From assembly GCF_000024725.1 (NCBI RefSeq), contig NC_013960.1:1324261-1388260 (forward strand): a stretch of DNA of 64,000 nt, read 5' to 3'. Shown piece by piece: positions 43,169 through 56,154 of the stretch. Both the position numbers and the translations under genes were made by a program. Below the pieces are notes generated by a model. It searched no databases. It saw only the letters and a list, made by a program, of their open reading frames with translations, and was not told the origin of the DNA. This stretch comes from Nitrosococcus halophilus Nc 4. Lineage in GTDB: Bacteria > Pseudomonadota > Gammaproteobacteria > Nitrosococcales > Nitrosococcaceae. Within the stretch, counting starts at the first letter, position 1, and every line of letters starts with the position of its first letter.

Positions 43169-43465
43169 ATGTGTTTGGGTATCCCGGCTCAGATTGTAAA
43201 CATTACCGATGCTGAGAACTTGCTTGCCGTGGTCAGTGTTGGCGGCGTTAAGCGGGAAATTAGCTTGGCCTGTGTCATAGAAGGCGACTCGCCCTTAGAG
43301 GCTTGGGTGGGAGAGTGGGTCTTGGTGCATGTGGGTTTTGCCATGAGCCGCATTGACCCGGAGGAGGCGGATAAGACTTTGAAATTGCTTGAGGAGTTGG
43401 GTGAACTCCAAGTTAAAATGGAAGATCAAGAGGGGCTAACCCCCGAGGACGAACAGCATGGATGA
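43169..43465 (+). CDS. hypC: Hydrogenase maturation chaperone HypC
   Basis: A 98-residue HypC/HupF-family protein beginning MCLGIPAQIV, in which Cys2 coordinates the Fe(CN)2CO unit shared with HypD. HVGFAMSRIDPEEA is the conserved C-terminal part of the OB-like barrel. A ribosome-binding AGGAGG lies before ATG 43169. Its last codons overlap the start of the next gene by 8 bp. Confidence 0.94.
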   Translation: MCLGIPAQIVNITDAENLLAVVSVGGVKREISLACVIEGDSPLEAWVGEWVLVHVGFAMSRIDPEEADKTLKLLEELGELQVKMEDQEGLTPEDEQHG

Positions 43466-44153
43466 GGATCCACTCCACTCCCTTTATCCCTTTCTCCAGG
43501 AGGGGCGGAAAGCACCCGAGGAAGGAGATGGTGCGTTATTGGAATCGGTGCGCCAAAAAGCCGCGGATAGTCTCTCGGTAAAGCAGGCCTTTTTTGACGC
43601 TCACCTTCACCAAATGGTGGCGGTGGCCCATACTCTGGCTACCGTCTACCGGGGAGGAGGGCGCCTATTTACCATGGGGAATGGAGGCTCTAGTTGTGAT
43701 GCGGCCCACATTGCCGTGGAATTCCAGCATCCGGTGACCGCAGGCCGGCCTGCTCTTCCTGCCACCCACCTAGGTGCAGATACTGCTTTAATGACGGCAT
43801 TGGGCAATGATATTGGTTTTAAGCATGTTTTTGTGCGGCAGCTATTGGCCCACGCCAAGGCCGGGGATGGGCTCATTGGTATTTCCACCAGCGGTAATTC
43901 GGAGAACCTGATGGCTGCTTTTGCCAAGGCCAAGGAGCAGGGGTTGGCCACCATCGGATTAACCGGCATGAGTGGCGGGGCGATGGCAAAGAGTCCTTTC
44001 CTTGACCACTGCTTGATTGTGCCTACTGACAGCATCCACCGGATTCAAGAATGTCATGTCGTCATTTATCATATTCTCTGGGATTTGGTGCACACCTTGC
44101 TTGCCGATGATCGGGGGAAGTCCGTCACCTATCAAGGGAACTCCGTCCCATGA
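43458..44153 (+). CDS. SIS-domain protein, GmhA-like (phosphoheptose isomerase family), in the hyp operon
   Basis: A 231-residue sugar isomerase (SIS) protein of the GmhA family. GmhA converts sedoheptulose 7-phosphate to heptose 7-phosphate for LPS. The sugar-phosphate site is FTMGNGGSSCDAAHIAVEF (about residues 72-90), with ISTSGNSENLMAAFAKAKEQ and HRIQECHVVIYHILWDLVH carrying the family's helical parts. It begins inside hypC and overlaps hypD in ATGA, so it is fully inside a hydrogenase maturation operon. An LPS role is possible, but the gene placement suggests a function tied to maturation. Such SIS genes near hyp genes are known to occur; the role is not settled to my knowledge. Confidence 0.85.
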   Translation: MDEDPLHSLYPFLQEGRKAPEEGDGALLESVRQKAADSLSVKQAFFDAHLHQMVAVAHTLATVYRGGGRLFTMGNGGSSCDAAHIAVEFQHPVTAGRPALPATHLGADTALMTALGNDIGFKHVFVRQLLAHAKAGDGLIGISTSGNSENLMAAFAKAKEQGLATIGLTGMSGGAMAKSPFLDHCLIVPTDSIHRIQECHVVIYHILWDLVHTLLADDRGKSVTYQGNSVP

Positions 44154-45304
44154 AATATGTGGATGAATTTCGGGATCCGGCGAAGGCCCGTTATTTGCTC
44201 GGGGAAATCAACCGCCAAATAGAACAAATTGCCACCTGCCAAGTCCGCCCATTGCAACTGATGGAGGTCTGTGGCGGCCATACCCATGCCCTGTTTAAAT
44301 ACGGGATTGAGACCCTGTTGCCCGAGGCTATCGAGCTGGTCCATGGGCCCGGTTGTCCGGTGTGTGTATTGCCCATGGGGCGGGTTGATGATTGTGTTGC
44401 CCTTGCCGAGCAAGGGGGAGTGATTTTCACTACCTTCGGGGATCCCATGCGGGTGCCGGGTTCCCGCAAGAGCTTGGCCCAGGCCAAAGCCGAGGGAGCC
44501 GATATTCGGATGGTCTACTCGCCTCTGGATGCCTTAAAGCTGGCTCGCCAGCACCCGGAGCGGGAAGTGGTGTTTTTCGGCTTAGGCTTTGAGACCACTA
44601 TTCCCAGTACCGCCTTCACCGTGCTTCAGGCCGAGCGCGAAGGGATCAACAATTTCTCGGTTTTTTGTAATCACATCACCATTATTCCCACCATTAAAGC
44701 CATTCTGGACTCCCCGGATATGCAGCTGGACGGCTTTCTGGGACCGGGCCATGTGAGTATGGTGATTGGCACCCGTCCCTATGGTTTCATCGCGGAGCGT
44801 TACCATAAACCGGTGGTGATTGCCGGCTTTGAGCCCCTTGACGTGTTGCAAGCGGTAGCCATGGTCCTGCGGCAGATTGCCGGAGGACGGGCAGAGGTGG
44901 AAAATCAGTATGGCCGGGTAGTCCCTCAGGAGGGTAATCGGGCGGCGCTGACAGCCCTTAGTCAGGTTTTTGAGGTGCGGGAATATTTTGAATGGCGAGG
45001 GCTCGGCTCCATTGATTATTCCGGGGTGCGGCTGCGGGAGCGCTATGCCCGTTATGATGCAGAGCGGCGTTTTTCTCTCCCTAACCTTAAAATCGCCGAT
45101 CCTAAAGCCTGTCAATGTGGGGAGGTTCTCAAGGGGATTCTCAAGCCCAGGGAATGCAAGGTTTTTGGCACCGCTTGTACTCCTGAAACCCCCTTAGGGG
45201 CCTTGATGGTGTCTTCTGAAGGGGCTTGCGCCGCTTACTACCGGTTTGGTCGCCTCCAGCAGCAAACACCGGCTCACCCCCAAGATATGATGGATCGAAC
45301 TTAA
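44150..45304 (+). CDS. hypD: Hydrogenase maturation protein HypD
   Basis: A 384-residue HypD, the scaffold on which the Fe(CN)2CO cluster is assembled with HypC and receives cyanide from HypE. It has the family's LMEVCGGHTHALFKYG near residues 39-54 and GPGCPVCVLP (about 66-75) with the active cysteines. FFGLGFETT, FCNHITIIP and the C-terminal 4Fe-4S cysteines in ACQCGEVLKG and CKVFGTACTP follow. Length is typical. It is coupled by ATGA overlap to the GmhA-like gene. Confidence 0.96.
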   Translation: MKYVDEFRDPAKARYLLGEINRQIEQIATCQVRPLQLMEVCGGHTHALFKYGIETLLPEAIELVHGPGCPVCVLPMGRVDDCVALAEQGGVIFTTFGDPMRVPGSRKSLAQAKAEGADIRMVYSPLDALKLARQHPEREVVFFGLGFETTIPSTAFTVLQAEREGINNFSVFCNHITIIPTIKAILDSPDMQLDGFLGPGHVSMVIGTRPYGFIAERYHKPVVIAGFEPLDVLQAVAMVLRQIAGGRAEVENQYGRVVPQEGNRAALTALSQVFEVREYFEWRGLGSIDYSGVRLRERYARYDAERRFSLPNLKIADPKACQCGEVLKGILKPRECKVFGTACTPETPLGALMVSSEGACAAYYRFGRLQQQTPAHPQDMMDRT

Positions 45305-45307
45305 GGG

Positions 45308-46345
45308 ATGAACAGTCACCAGGGGAGTCGGCATATCACCTTGGCCCATGGCGGTGGCGGCAAGGCCATGCGTGATCTCATCGAGACTCTCTTTGTCCGT
45401 CATTTTCATAATCCTTGGCTGACTCCCCTGGAAGATCAGGCCCGGATCGGGCTTGGGGAATTGTCACCAGGGGGAAATCGGCTTGCCTTTACCACTGATT
45501 CTTTTGTGGTTGATCCGTTATTTTTTCCCGGCGGCGACATCGGTACCCTGGCGGTCAACGGCACTGTCAATGATCTTGCCATGAGCGGCGCTCAGCCCCT
45601 ATACCTAAGCTGTGGGATGATTCTGGAGGAAGGCCTTTCCATAACCCTTCTGGAGGAGGTGGTGGAGAGCATGGGCCGTGCCGCCGATGCTGCCGGGGTG
45701 AGTATCGTTACCGGCGACATCAAGGTGGTGCCCCGGGGAGCGGTGGATAAGCTGTTTATTAACACCACCGGTCTAGGCGTGATTCCGGAAGGTGTTCATA
45801 TTGCCAGCCACCGGGCCCAACCTGGGGATGCTATTTTGGTCAATGGCTTTATGGGGGATCATGGGGCCGCCATCGTGGATGCCCGTGGGGATCTAGCCTT
45901 GGACAATCCGGTGGAAAGCGATTGTCAGCCCCTCCATGGGCTAGTGGCAGCGATGCTGGCGGCCTGTCCTGATATCCACTGTTTGCGGGATGCCACCCGG
46001 GGTGGAGTGGCCACGGTGCTCAACGAATTTGTCCAAGCGGCCCAGGTGGGGATGCGTCTTGAAGAAGCCTCACTGCCAGTGCGAGAGACGGTCCGGGGCG
46101 TCTGTGAAATCCTGGGACTGGATCCCCTCTACTTGGCTAATGAAGGAAAGCTGGTGGCGATAGTGCCCGCTGAGGCAGCGGAAGCTGTTTTAGCCGCCAT
46201 GCGCTCCCACCCCGCCGGTCGGGAGGGGGCGATAATTGGCGAAGTGACGGCGGTCCCTGAGGGAAGGGTGGTGCTGGCGACCGCTCTAGGGGGGGAGCGC
46301 ATTGTGGATATGCTAGTGGGAGAGCAATTGCCTCGCATCTGCTAA
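45308..46345 (+). CDS. hypE: Hydrogenase maturation protein HypE
   Basis: A 345-residue HypE (PurM/AIR-synthase-like fold). It dehydrates the C-terminal thiocarbamate to a thiocyanate, the source of CN ligands. The N-terminal ATP-binding segment LAHGGGGKAMRDLIETLF (about residues 11-28) is typical. The family's required C-terminal cysteine is present: the protein ends EQLPRIC. DATRGGVATVLNEF (about residues 229-242) is the PurM-like core. It starts 3 bp after hypD and is the last gene of the operon. Confidence 0.96.
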   Translation: MNSHQGSRHITLAHGGGGKAMRDLIETLFVRHFHNPWLTPLEDQARIGLGELSPGGNRLAFTTDSFVVDPLFFPGGDIGTLAVNGTVNDLAMSGAQPLYLSCGMILEEGLSITLLEEVVESMGRAADAAGVSIVTGDIKVVPRGAVDKLFINTTGLGVIPEGVHIASHRAQPGDAILVNGFMGDHGAAIVDARGDLALDNPVESDCQPLHGLVAAMLAACPDIHCLRDATRGGVATVLNEFVQAAQVGMRLEEASLPVRETVRGVCEILGLDPLYLANEGKLVAIVPAEAAEAVLAAMRSHPAGREGAIIGEVTAVPEGRVVLATALGGERIVDMLVGEQLPRIC

Positions 46346-47201: not shown

Positions 47202-47882
47202 ATGAAATTGGTACCTTTAAGAAAAGCCGTGCAAGCGCTCGGTTTATCCAAGAACACCCTGAGAAAGTATGCAGACCAGGGAAGTATTAATGTTATCCGA
47301 ACCCCGAGCGGGCAACGGCTCTTTGATTTGGACAGTTTCACTGGACAACTCACTAAACAAACAGCCGTCGCCTACGCTCGGGTCAGCTCAAAAGGGCAAA
47401 AGCCGGACTTAGAGTGCCAGGTGGAATATCTAAGCGAATACGCAAGCGAGGTGGTGCGTGATGTCGGCAGTGGTCTCAACTATAAACGAAAAGGCTTACG
47501 CGCCTTACTGGAACGCGCAGTATGCGGAGAGCGTCTCAAAATTGTGGTTGCCTCACGAGACCGTATTGCACGGTTTGGCTGGGAACTCGTGGACTTTATC
47601 GTCCAAAAACCCGGCGGCGAAATCGTGGTTCTCGATCAACGTGTGGGAAGCGCAGAAGAAGAGCTCACCCAAGACCTCTTGCATATCCTCCACGTTTTCT
47701 CTTGCCGAATGTATGGGCGACGAAAGTATAAAAGTAATCAGGTCGAAGAAGATCCGGTTCTATCCTACTACAGCGCAGAAGAACTTGTTCAGGCGTTGGT
47801 TCGGCGTATCGAGAAGGATTTACAACAAGACGGTCGAACACTTAGCTACTCCAGGGACGATAGCGGACTGGAAAGCGATTAA
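47202..47882 (+). CDS. tnpA: IS607-family serine recombinase TnpA
   Basis: A 226-residue IS607-type transposase. The N-terminal MerR-like helix-turn-helix (KLVPLRKAVQALGLSKNTLR, with RKYADQG) is followed by a serine-recombinase catalytic domain: AYARVSSKGQKPDLECQVEY contains the nucleophile Ser, and VVASRDRIARFGWELVDF has the active arginines. The C-terminal HVFSCRMYGRRKYK is usual for the family. Its 3' end overlaps the tnpB gene by about 170 bp in another frame. IS607 elements transpose without terminal repeats. It looks intact. Confidence 0.92.
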   Translation: MKLVPLRKAVQALGLSKNTLRKYADQGSINVIRTPSGQRLFDLDSFTGQLTKQTAVAYARVSSKGQKPDLECQVEYLSEYASEVVRDVGSGLNYKRKGLRALLERAVCGERLKIVVASRDRIARFGWELVDFIVQKPGGEIVVLDQRVGSAEEELTQDLLHILHVFSCRMYGRRKYKSNQVEEDPVLSYYSAEELVQALVRRIEKDLQQDGRTLSYSRDDSGLESD

Positions 47883-48855
47883 GCAATGGCTGATTCCGGC
47901 TCAACCTGAGTATACCTTTGAGGTTCCGCGAGCTATTCGTGATGGTGCGGTCATGGACGCTTGCCGGGCCGTTAAGGCGGCCAAGGTAAAGACCAAGCAA
48001 ACTGGCAACCCCCATAAAGTACGCTTCCGCTCAAAGCGGGAACCCACGCAAACTCTCTTTATCCGCAATGACATGATTCGGAAAGGGACTGTGTACCCTA
48101 CCAAATTGGGGGTGCTGTCCTTTTCCGAATCATTGCCTGAACACCCACGGGATTCTCGGATCACGTGGGAAAACGGACGGTGGTTTATGTGCGTGCCCCA
48201 TGAAATCACCTTATCGCCGGGGGCGAGAACCAAGCCCTATTATGCTGTAGGGGTCGATCCTGGGGTGCGCACTTTCCTCAGTTTTTATACCGATGGCGCA
48301 GTTGGGGATTTAGGCGAAGGCGATTTTGGGCGGATTGCCCGCTTGTGTGCCTATTTGGACGATTTAATGTCCCGTCTTGACCCGAAGCGCAAGGAAAACC
48401 GAGTCAATGCGGCTAAGCGTCAACGTATGCGCAAGGCAGCCAATAGGCTTCGGTGGAAGATTAAAGACTTAATCCGTGAAGTACATTGGAAGTGCGCCCG
48501 TTTTCTTTGTGAAAACTTTGAAGTCGTGTTTATCCCCGACTTTGAAACGCAGCAAATGGCTTCACGGACCAAGCGAAAGCTGAGGAAAAAATCGGTTCGC
48601 GCCATGCTCACGTGGTCCCACTACCAGTTTCGTCAGCGCTTGGAATGGATGGCAAAAAAACTAGGGACCACTGTAATTTCTGTCAACGAATCCTACACCA
48701 GCAAGACCGTGAACTGGACGGGCGAAGTCAACCATAAACTGGGTGGCGCTCGGATAGTGAAGGGTTCGGACGGAAACTCCATGAAGCGAGACCACAATGG
48801 CGCCCTTGGGATTTATCTCAAGGGCTTTGTCGGATACGGCCTAACGAAATGTTAG
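47713..48855 (+). CDS. tnpB: TnpB-family RNA-guided nuclease homologue (IS607 type), no zinc-ribbon cysteines
   Basis: A 380-residue TnpB, with ATG 47713 chosen because family homology begins there (IRSKKIRFYPTTAQKNLFRR); the frame is open further upstream inside tnpA. RuvC-like residues are seen: Asp in AVGVDPGVRTFLSFYTDG (about residues 178-195), the acidic pair in VFIPDFETQQM (about residues 272-282) and the Asp in KRDHNGALGI near the C-terminus. YTSKT and NHKLGGARI, the zinc-ribbon segment, are present, but the usual two CxxC pairs are replaced (KTVNWTGEVNHK; IVKGSDGNSM). This is a known variant pattern in some IS607 relatives to my recollection. The nuclease may therefore be catalytically competent with an altered target-end domain, or be degenerate. 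Confidence 0.85.
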   Translation: MGDESIKVIRSKKIRFYPTTAQKNLFRRWFGVSRRIYNKTVEHLATPGTIADWKAIKQWLIPAQPEYTFEVPRAIRDGAVMDACRAVKAAKVKTKQTGNPHKVRFRSKREPTQTLFIRNDMIRKGTVYPTKLGVLSFSESLPEHPRDSRITWENGRWFMCVPHEITLSPGARTKPYYAVGVDPGVRTFLSFYTDGAVGDLGEGDFGRIARLCAYLDDLMSRLDPKRKENRVNAAKRQRMRKAANRLRWKIKDLIREVHWKCARFLCENFEVVFIPDFETQQMASRTKRKLRKKSVRAMLTWSHYQFRQRLEWMAKKLGTTVISVNESYTSKTVNWTGEVNHKLGGARIVKGSDGNSMKRDHNGALGIYLKGFVGYGLTKC

Positions 48856-54042: not shown

Positions 54043-54359
54043 CGGCGGTTCTGGATAGCTCAGGTTCTTGTAGACGCCACAAACGAAAGTCGTCGTGTTT
54101 TAAATGGGGAGAATTGAGCAAATGAAGGGAAGGCTAAGCCTATCGGTTTCGGGCAATGACCTTGCCGGAAACGGCCTCAAGGCCTTATTGATGCGCCCCT
54201 CCCTGGCGCGCGCCCTTCGGGCCTCCTGCAGGAGGTCCCGATTCGCTCCCGGCGAATCGGTCCGGCCTACTAGGAGGCGCTCATAAACCGCCCGTAGGCC
54301 GGATTAAGCGTTACGTATCCGGCAAAACAATACCAAGGTGAACCGAGAGAGCAGGGAGA
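54043..54359. other. Intergenic region with REP-like repeat
   Basis: Mainly the inverted REP-like copy C (54160-54270). A small open frame across it is a by-product of the GC-rich repeat and is not a gene. The right end (54300-54359) probably holds the promoter of the next gene. Confidence 0.6.
54160..54270 (-). repeat. REP-like repeat, copy C (inverted)
   Basis: Reverse complement of copy B (33921-34030) over about 110 bp. It shares the GTAGGCCGGACCGATTCG end, the GATTCG/CGAATC hairpin, GGAGGCCCGAAGGG, the GCGCATCAATAAGGCC segment and the terminal GGCCGTTTCCGGCAAG. Confidence 0.75.
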
Positions 54360-56141
54360 ATGGAGCGCCAAGAGTTAATGATTACTCTCCCAAGCGAGGA
54401 AAAGAGACTTCGCCGTCAGTTTTGGATCGGTTTGCTTCTCTCCATGCCCGTTCTGTTCTATAGTCCGCCATTCCAGGAGTGGCTTCCGTTCTCTTTACCG
54501 GCATTTATGGTCCGCTCCTGGATAGCGCCGCTTTTTGCGCTCCTTGTTTTTAGCTATGGCGGCTTGCCTTTTTTGCGCCTAGCAGCTAAAGAACTTCACT
54601 CCTCTCACTGGGGAATGATGGCGTTTCTTTCTCTGCTGGTCATTGGGGCTATTAGTGCTTCCCTCGCCTTTCTGATCTTGGCTTTCCTGGTTTCAGCGCC
54701 GATAGGGGGGTCTCTGTGGATAGGGGTCGTCCTGATGGATGGACTGCTCCTTGGCCAATGGGTGGGGGGGCGTCGCTTGCGTCAGGTCACTACTCCTCTG
54801 CAGCGAATAATTAGCTTGCTGCCTGAAACAGTCGAGCGGATCACCCAAAAAGACCAGAGGGAAACCGTGCCAGTGGGCGAGCTGAAAAGGGGGGATCTCG
54901 TGCTTATGCGACTGGAAAGCCGCACCCTGCCTGCCCAGAGTCATCTCCTGAAAAAAACGGAAATGGCGTCTCATGAAGACCGTGATTATGGGGCCATGGT
55001 AGCCGATTTCGCCCGTCGTTTCCGGACTCCGCTGATTCTGGTGGCCTTGACCCTGATGGCGGTAACTGTGGCTTACCTTTTGAGCAAGAGGGAAGCGGTG
55101 AATGTTCTCAATTTCGAGGCGCTTGGGCTTGGGGCCACAATAGCCATCTTTGCAGGAGCGTCTTTAGTGATCGGGGTGGCGGGAACTTATCTCACCCGCT
55201 CAGCGGATCTTTTCGCGGATCTCACGGGGATTGGTGAGGCGTTAGTGGGGGCGGTGCTGCTGGGTGCGGTCACCTCCTTAGCGGGTGTCGTCACTTCCCT
55301 GACGGCAGCGGCTGAAGGTCATCCCGTGCTGTCGGTAAGCAATGCCATTGGGGGTATCGCGGCCCAGACGGCTTTCCTTGCTGTGGCGGACTTGTTTTAC
55401 CGGGGGGCCAATCTCGAGCATGCCGCCGCTTCCCTCCAAAATTTAATGCAAAGTGTGATTTTGATTAGCCTACTCATGGTATTGCTGGCCGTGATTACGA
55501 CCCCCCAAGTTACCGTCTTTGGGGTTCATCCCGCGTCTCCTGTCATCATTGTCGCCTATCTCGCAGCCGTTAAACTCGTCTCCAGATCCAGTAAGATGCC
55601 CATGTGGGCGCCCCGGAAAACGGCTCAGACCGTGCTGGATGAACCTGATGAAAAGGGGATTCAGCACACCAGCTTAGCCAAGGTCTCTGTGAGCCTTCTG
55701 GTCAATGGGATAGCGGTTGCCATCGCCGGTTACCTCGTTGCTCAATCCGGGATTGCGTTATCCGCCAAGACTGGGCTTTCCGAGACCTTCGTTGGCAGCT
55801 TATTCACAGCAGTGGCCACTTCCTTGCCTGAATTAGTGGTTTCGGTAAGTGCAGTAAAGCAGGGAGCACTGACCTTGGCGGTCGGTAACATTGTAGGAGG
55901 CAATTCATTCGAAGTCCTGGTCGTTGCCGCAGCCGATTTCGTCTATCTTGACGGTTCACTCCTGCACGCTACCACGGAGAGCCAGACCTTTATTATTGCC
56001 TTGACCGCCTTATTAATGGGAGTTTTGCTCTTGGGGCTATTGTATCGCCAACGTCAGGGGATTGCGGGAATTGGCTGGGAGAGCTTTTTAATCCTGTTGT
56101 TGTTTCTCGGAGGCTATGGGGTGTTGTACCTCATGGGTTGA
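54360..56141 (+). CDS. Chimeric membrane protein: P1B-ATPase-like transmembrane half fused to a CaCA-type cation exchanger
   Basis: A 593-residue polytopic protein. Residues about 20-190 look like the first four helices and the start of the actuator domain of heavy-metal (P1B, CopB-like) ATPases (RRQFWIGLLLSMPVLFYSP; FSYGGLPFLR; LLPETVERITQK; VGELKRGDLVLMR). The TGE actuator motif and the DKTGT phosphorylation domain are absent. From about residue 250 it resembles the calcium:cation antiporter family, with two alpha repeats: GAVTSLAGVVTSLTAAAEGH (about 298-317; acidic residue missing) and FTAVATSLPELVVSVSAVKQG (about 481-501; SLPEL retained) with GNIVGGNSFEVLVV. It may be an exchanger with an extra membrane domain. 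Confidence 0.75.
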   Translation: MERQELMITLPSEEKRLRRQFWIGLLLSMPVLFYSPPFQEWLPFSLPAFMVRSWIAPLFALLVFSYGGLPFLRLAAKELHSSHWGMMAFLSLLVIGAISASLAFLILAFLVSAPIGGSLWIGVVLMDGLLLGQWVGGRRLRQVTTPLQRIISLLPETVERITQKDQRETVPVGELKRGDLVLMRLESRTLPAQSHLLKKTEMASHEDRDYGAMVADFARRFRTPLILVALTLMAVTVAYLLSKREAVNVLNFEALGLGATIAIFAGASLVIGVAGTYLTRSADLFADLTGIGEALVGAVLLGAVTSLAGVVTSLTAAAEGHPVLSVSNAIGGIAAQTAFLAVADLFYRGANLEHAAASLQNLMQSVILISLLMVLLAVITTPQVTVFGVHPASPVIIVAYLAAVKLVSRSSKMPMWAPRKTAQTVLDEPDEKGIQHTSLAKVSVSLLVNGIAVAIAGYLVAQSGIALSAKTGLSETFVGSLFTAVATSLPELVVSVSAVKQGALTLAVGNIVGGNSFEVLVVAAADFVYLDGSLLHATTESQTFIIALTALLMGVLLLGLLYRQRQGIAGIGWESFLILLLFLGGYGVLYLMG

Positions 56142-56154
56142 TTGGATGTAATTT

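Follow-up and report, generated by a model that had tools for sequence, protein, structure and literature searches.

In P1B-ATPases the helices MA through M2 form a separate bundle that moves as a single unit and provides a docking platform for CopZ (PMC9433437). In CaCA proteins the loop between TM5 and TM6 is cytosolic (PMC9820601), and in the family member NCX_Mj transport depends on E54, E213, S51, S77, T209 and D240 (PMC8366772). A literature search for fusions between a P1B-ATPase and a CaCA exchanger found nothing relevant. Within the 64,000-nucleotide stretch of the Nitrosococcus halophilus Nc 4 genome that we analysed (the window), one open reading frame of 593 codons, stop-free throughout, is a genuine three-piece chimera in which the leading portion of a CopB gene is followed by the beginning of another CopB gene and then by a CaCA exchanger (Table 1). 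An earlier note on this DNA had described the frame as a P1B-ATPase membrane part without catalytic domains joined to a CaCA exchanger, intact and no simple frameshift scar; sequence and fold both support the fusion, and the uninterrupted translation agrees with the second point.

Table 1. Features of the chimeric gene and its surroundings (window positions)
Feature	Position	Strand	Basis
Insertion missing from three congeners	54073..56143	.	comparison of flanking genes
Dispersed repeat immediately before the gene; full and partial copies in the genome	54092..54333	+	47 genome matches
Chimeric ORF (593 aa) made of a CopB fragment, the start of another CopB and a CaCA exchanger	54360..56141	+	homology searches
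CopB/P1B-ATPase MA, MB, M1, M2 and first actuator strands (residues 15-193)	54402..54938	+	CopB identity, LpCopA match, AlphaFold/PDB matches
Joint between first CopB fragment and second CopB start (residues 187-204); actuator domain cut before TGE	54918..54971	+	alignment
Second CopB start, HxxxxxGAMVADFxRRFxxxLIL (residues 205-231), then hydrophobic helix to 242	54972..55052	+	N-terminus profile, DNA match
Fifth TM helix (residues 222-242), putative topology adaptor	55023..55085	+	hydropathy, models, loop charges
In-frame GTG preceded by GAGGGAA at the point where free-standing relatives start; may be an ancestral or secondary start	55098..55100	+	anti-SD energy
Complete 10-helix CaCA exchanger (residues 247-593)	55098..56138	+	Na_Ca_ex, free-standing relatives, NCX_Mj fold
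Alpha-1 repeat; NCX_Mj E54 position is G309 (nt 55284-55286)	55233..55379	+	alignment
Alpha-2 repeat; E491 (NCX_Mj E213), E518 (NCX_Mj D240)	55782..55934	+	alignment

Profile searches, which had been proposed as a check, returned heavy-metal and copper ATPase models for the N-terminal half (NCBIfam ATPase-IB_hvy, E 1.4e-6; ATPase-IB1_Cu, E 4e-4) and Na_Ca_ex for the C-terminal 344 residues (E 5e-24, in two stretches), while no Pfam model scored above its own cutoff on the N-terminal part. A phmmer search of PDB sequences with residues 1-249 matched LpCopA as its sole hit (E 1.4e-6, residues 13-185). An intact 672-aa CopB-like ATPase encoded in the same genome (L002), which carries TGE, DKTGT and CPH, is 45% identical to residues 12-196 of the chimera (E 4e-41), and a second CopB-like ATPase of this genome (L003) is 35% identical to the N-terminal part. 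The fragment sits on a long branch, being 45% identical to L002, whereas L002 is 53-57% identical to other CopBs. When the N-terminal part was modelled alone with AlphaFold (mean pLDDT 80.7, about 90 over residues 15-193), its fold matches at E <0.1 were exclusively copper P1B-ATPases (4bbj, 3rfu, 7r0g).

Alignment with 26 P1B-ATPases showed that MA, MB, M1, M2 and the first actuator strands are kept, including the class-specific MA-MB helices with their GG platform, and that the ATPase sequence ends at the IPADG region, ahead of TGE. Unlike CopB-type P1B-ATPases (P1B-3; compared with LpCopA 3rfu/4bbj and AfCopA 7r0g), the chimera lacks the P- and N-domains and M3-M6, and it has a secondary transporter attached. 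The DKTGT phosphorylation motif is absent from the 593-aa translation, and both the actuator TGE and the CPC/CPH metal-binding helix (core M4, TMH6 of eight) are missing from translation and alignment alike; the loss of TGE and DKTGT had been correctly called from the sequence. The His-rich CopB leader is absent as well. Of the three residues proposed for the copper-ATPase entry site, the Met alone is retained (LpCopA M148), the M2 Glu (LpCopA E205) has become Gly, and the M3 Asp is gone. Among 34 CopB-invariant positions the N-terminal half keeps 19 and has lost 15 (44% altered); each of 23 intact CopBs keeps 89-100%. The ATPase part is best explained as unable to hydrolyse ATP or to bind the transported metal.

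The earlier note had extended this ATPase piece to about residue 240. Its ATPase nature stands by sequence and fold, but the contiguous part ends near residue 193. Residues 205-231 read HEDRDYGAMVADFARRFRTPLIL, the signature of a CopB N-terminus ('GAMVADFxRRF'), and score 17.6 bits with a profile of CopB N-termini versus 4.1 bits with a profile of the M3 region; we therefore dropped an initial assignment of residues 206-240 as ATPase helix M3. At the DNA level, 39 bp of this region are 79% identical to the beginning of a congener's CopB gene (locus L015). Residues 222-242 are hydrophobic (hydropathy 2.2) and helical in both the full-length and the N-part models.

The remainder of the protein is an exchanger that begins at about residue 247, which is where all free-standing relatives start, and it is 45-57% identical to those relatives. 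NCX_Mj matches it by sequence (E about 1e-5) and by fold (Foldseek). With characterized CaCA exchangers (NCX_Mj, YfkE, VCX1) it shares ten helices, two alpha repeats, E213, P212, an acidic residue at the D240 position and a short TM5-TM6 loop of 28 residues. The claim that both alpha repeats are present holds for the two Na_Ca_ex stretches and the NCX_Mj fold, but alpha-1 lacks the canonical Glu54, reading TSLAG in place of the TSLPE motif, while alpha-2 retains the G/A-TSLPE motif with E213 as ATSLPEL. We compared these positions across 111 related exchangers (L006-L055, L109-L188). At the E54 position 99 have Gly, 10 Asp and 2 Glu; the E213 position is Glu in all 111; D240 is Asp in 100 and Glu, as in the chimera, in 2; N81 is Gln in 101, as here; and S51 and T50 are kept. 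Since Gly in place of E54 is a trait of the subfamily, membership in the CaCA superfamily stands, and Na+/Ca2+ exchange of the NCX kind is not to be assumed. Judged by its sequence, the exchanger is as intact as its relatives. NCBIfam TIGR00367 scored below its cutoff on it, and no conserved neighbours that might name its function were found. The E54-less subfamily itself is widespread, occurring in Bacteroidota, Cyanobacteriota, Pseudomonadota, Nitrospirota and others, and no curated NCBIfam model matches it above cutoff.

In the full-length AlphaFold model (mean pLDDT 72.7), four ATPase helices are followed by a short strand unit, the fifth helix and the exchanger fold, with the junction weakly modelled (pLDDT <50 across most of residues 187-224). 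Foldseek assigned the C-terminal part of this model to NCX_Mj, YfkE and VCX1 and the N-terminal part to LpCopA/AfCopA. The five-helix extension belongs to the chimera alone and occurs in no CaCA relative; members in every other genome searched start at the equivalent of residue ~250. The N-terminal half, ATPase by sequence and fold, is thus not made of the exchanger family's own helices.

Comparison with three congeners showed that the genes flanking the locus are syntenic and lie 78-86 bp apart in those genomes, with ~2.07 kb inserted here; no congener has the exchanger. No convincing repeats were found at the insertion ends, and no sigma-70 type promoter matched upstream of the ORF. The dispersed repeat preceding the gene (~240 bp), which lies within the insertion, has about nine near-full copies in the genome and many partial ones, and its inner part is also found alone; one copy of that inner part precedes the L003 CopB match by ~30 bp (G000:C2:1727704-1727778). 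In a tree of exchangers the chimera's exchanger groups with Bacteroidota (support 100/99), not with Gammaproteobacteria, which suggests horizontal acquisition. Elsewhere in the window, a SIS-domain gene is followed by HypD and by an AIR-synthase family gene resembling HypE (43458-46345); these are hydrogenase maturation genes in a host that is probably an ammonia oxidiser. At 47202-48855 a MerR/resolvase gene overlaps the 465-aa ORF that comes after it; judged by the resolvase, the pair looks like an IS607-type element.

Of the genomes surveyed (59 at order level, 369 at class level and 399 at phylum level, in sets that overlap; ~820 in all), none carried the same fusion, and it did not occur in a plasmid collection either. 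A contig scan with the exchanger alignment located 80 further exchanger loci, none with an ATPase piece upstream, and a scan with the full-length protein as query returned nothing; the related exchangers in these genomes and loci are free-standing. One of them (L035, G303:C6:57753-58775) appears as a 766-aa open frame in the genome search and as a 349-aa frame with a stop just upstream in the locus sequence. A CopB gene beside free-standing exchangers was considered as the source of the fusion and none was found; three distant P-type ATPases lie near such exchangers by chance. That the fusion is recent and local follows from the free-standing state of its relatives and from the 2-kb insertion.

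The reading that we favour, with modest confidence, is a working exchanger behind a catalytically dead, passive leader that sets its topology. On this view the two CopB pieces would have become joined to a CaCA gene acquired horizontally, and the resulting gene would now be translated as one 15-helix membrane protein. Its exchanger part would perform the transport, moving Ca2+ or a similar cation, as expected from the family, against Na+ or H+, while the ATPase part, with MA-M2 as a self-contained helix bundle, would serve as a passive membrane leader. Because the TM5-TM6 loop is cytosolic, CaCA TM1 must begin outside. Five preceding helices place the exchanger N-terminus outside, and the four ATPase helices alone would fail to do so. 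The CopB-start piece probably supplies the fifth helix, which would make the preceding helix count odd and let the first exchanger helix start outside, as in all CaCA proteins; we propose this as the reason why the second CopB scrap is present. For an N-in protein with five helices and then an N-out exchanger, the Lys and Arg residues of the loops divide into 27 predicted inner and 3 outer, in keeping with the positive-inside rule.

The N-terminal half could instead be debris upstream of a live gene, with the exchanger alone made from GTG 55098 or nearby, a possibility that we regard as somewhat doubtful. This GTG, with GAGGGAA before it, sits exactly at the start of the free-standing exchangers, and the loss of ATPase-specific residues also favours debris. 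Its anti-SD energy is -6.3 (34 other starts have a median of -5.45), within a broad in-ORF background where many positions are similar. Ribosome-binding strength at 54360 is ordinary, however, and codon-position GC is normal in both halves (0.61/0.42/0.59 in the N-terminal and 0.60/0.44/0.60 in the C-terminal half). Debris would also have to account for about 245 codons free of stops and frameshifts despite heavy divergence. In simulations of neutral drift of similar size, which begin from a paralogue and not the ancestor of a chimera known from one sequence, a 180-codon stretch stayed stop-free in 2-3% of runs, and the hydropathy of the four helices fell from 1.17 to 0.77 (sd 0.23); in the chimera they score 1.46, which is at the upper end of the values for working ATPases, so that helix hydrophobicity has been kept or raised against the neutral expectation. 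A stop-free frame with ATPase-level hydrophobicity is seldom given by simulated neutral decay, and the N-terminal half thus looks like a retained, translated membrane module rather than a decaying pseudogene. The simple reading is that ATPase constraint was lost and membrane-domain constraint retained.

The apparent maintenance of the membrane bundle would also suit a regulatory or sensor fusion, in which MA-M2 and its platform dock a copper chaperone, bind metal or lipid, or gate the exchanger. We consider this unlikely. The GG platform and the entry-site Met are retained, and the bundle is the part that acts in P1B-ATPases as the CopZ docking platform. Against such a role stand the exchange of E205 for Gly, the missing M3 Asp, CPH helix and His-rich leader, an actuator cut before TGE, the 15 lost invariant positions and an architecture conserved in no other genome searched. 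The same losses tell against the earlier note's suggestion that the ATPase part provides metal- or lipid-binding regulation or a new ion path. That the retained bundle regulates or tethers the exchanger, for instance as a copper-chaperone docking site or a dimer interface, is to our mind likewise unlikely. An assembly or cloning chimera of unrelated genes is very improbable: the fusion comes from a single genome of one isolate, but that genome is 99.98% complete and consists of one chromosome-sized and one plasmid-sized contig (4,079,427 and 65,833 bases), the flanking genes are syntenic with congeners, and neither half has an identical copy elsewhere in the genome (the best match is 45%), which leaves the ORF without an internal repeat that could be mis-joined.

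The product of this ORF is an unusual species-specific chimera, a CaCA exchanger variant that is neither a working P1B-ATPase nor a demonstrated new transport mechanism. Were the MA-M2 bundle to regulate or tether the exchanger, it would represent a new kind of composite transporter, in which a secondary exchanger is combined with the membrane part of a primary pump. The gene gives an example from nature of an ATP-driven pump whose front helix bundle was cut from its motor, diverged and survives as the N-terminus of an unrelated antiporter, a scrap of a second pump probably supplying the odd helix that topology demands. The chimera makes it possible to test whether the MA-M2 bundle of a P1B-ATPase folds alone and whether membrane topology constrains which fusions survive, and it points to a widespread CaCA subfamily that lacks the alpha-1 member of the pair of central glutamates.
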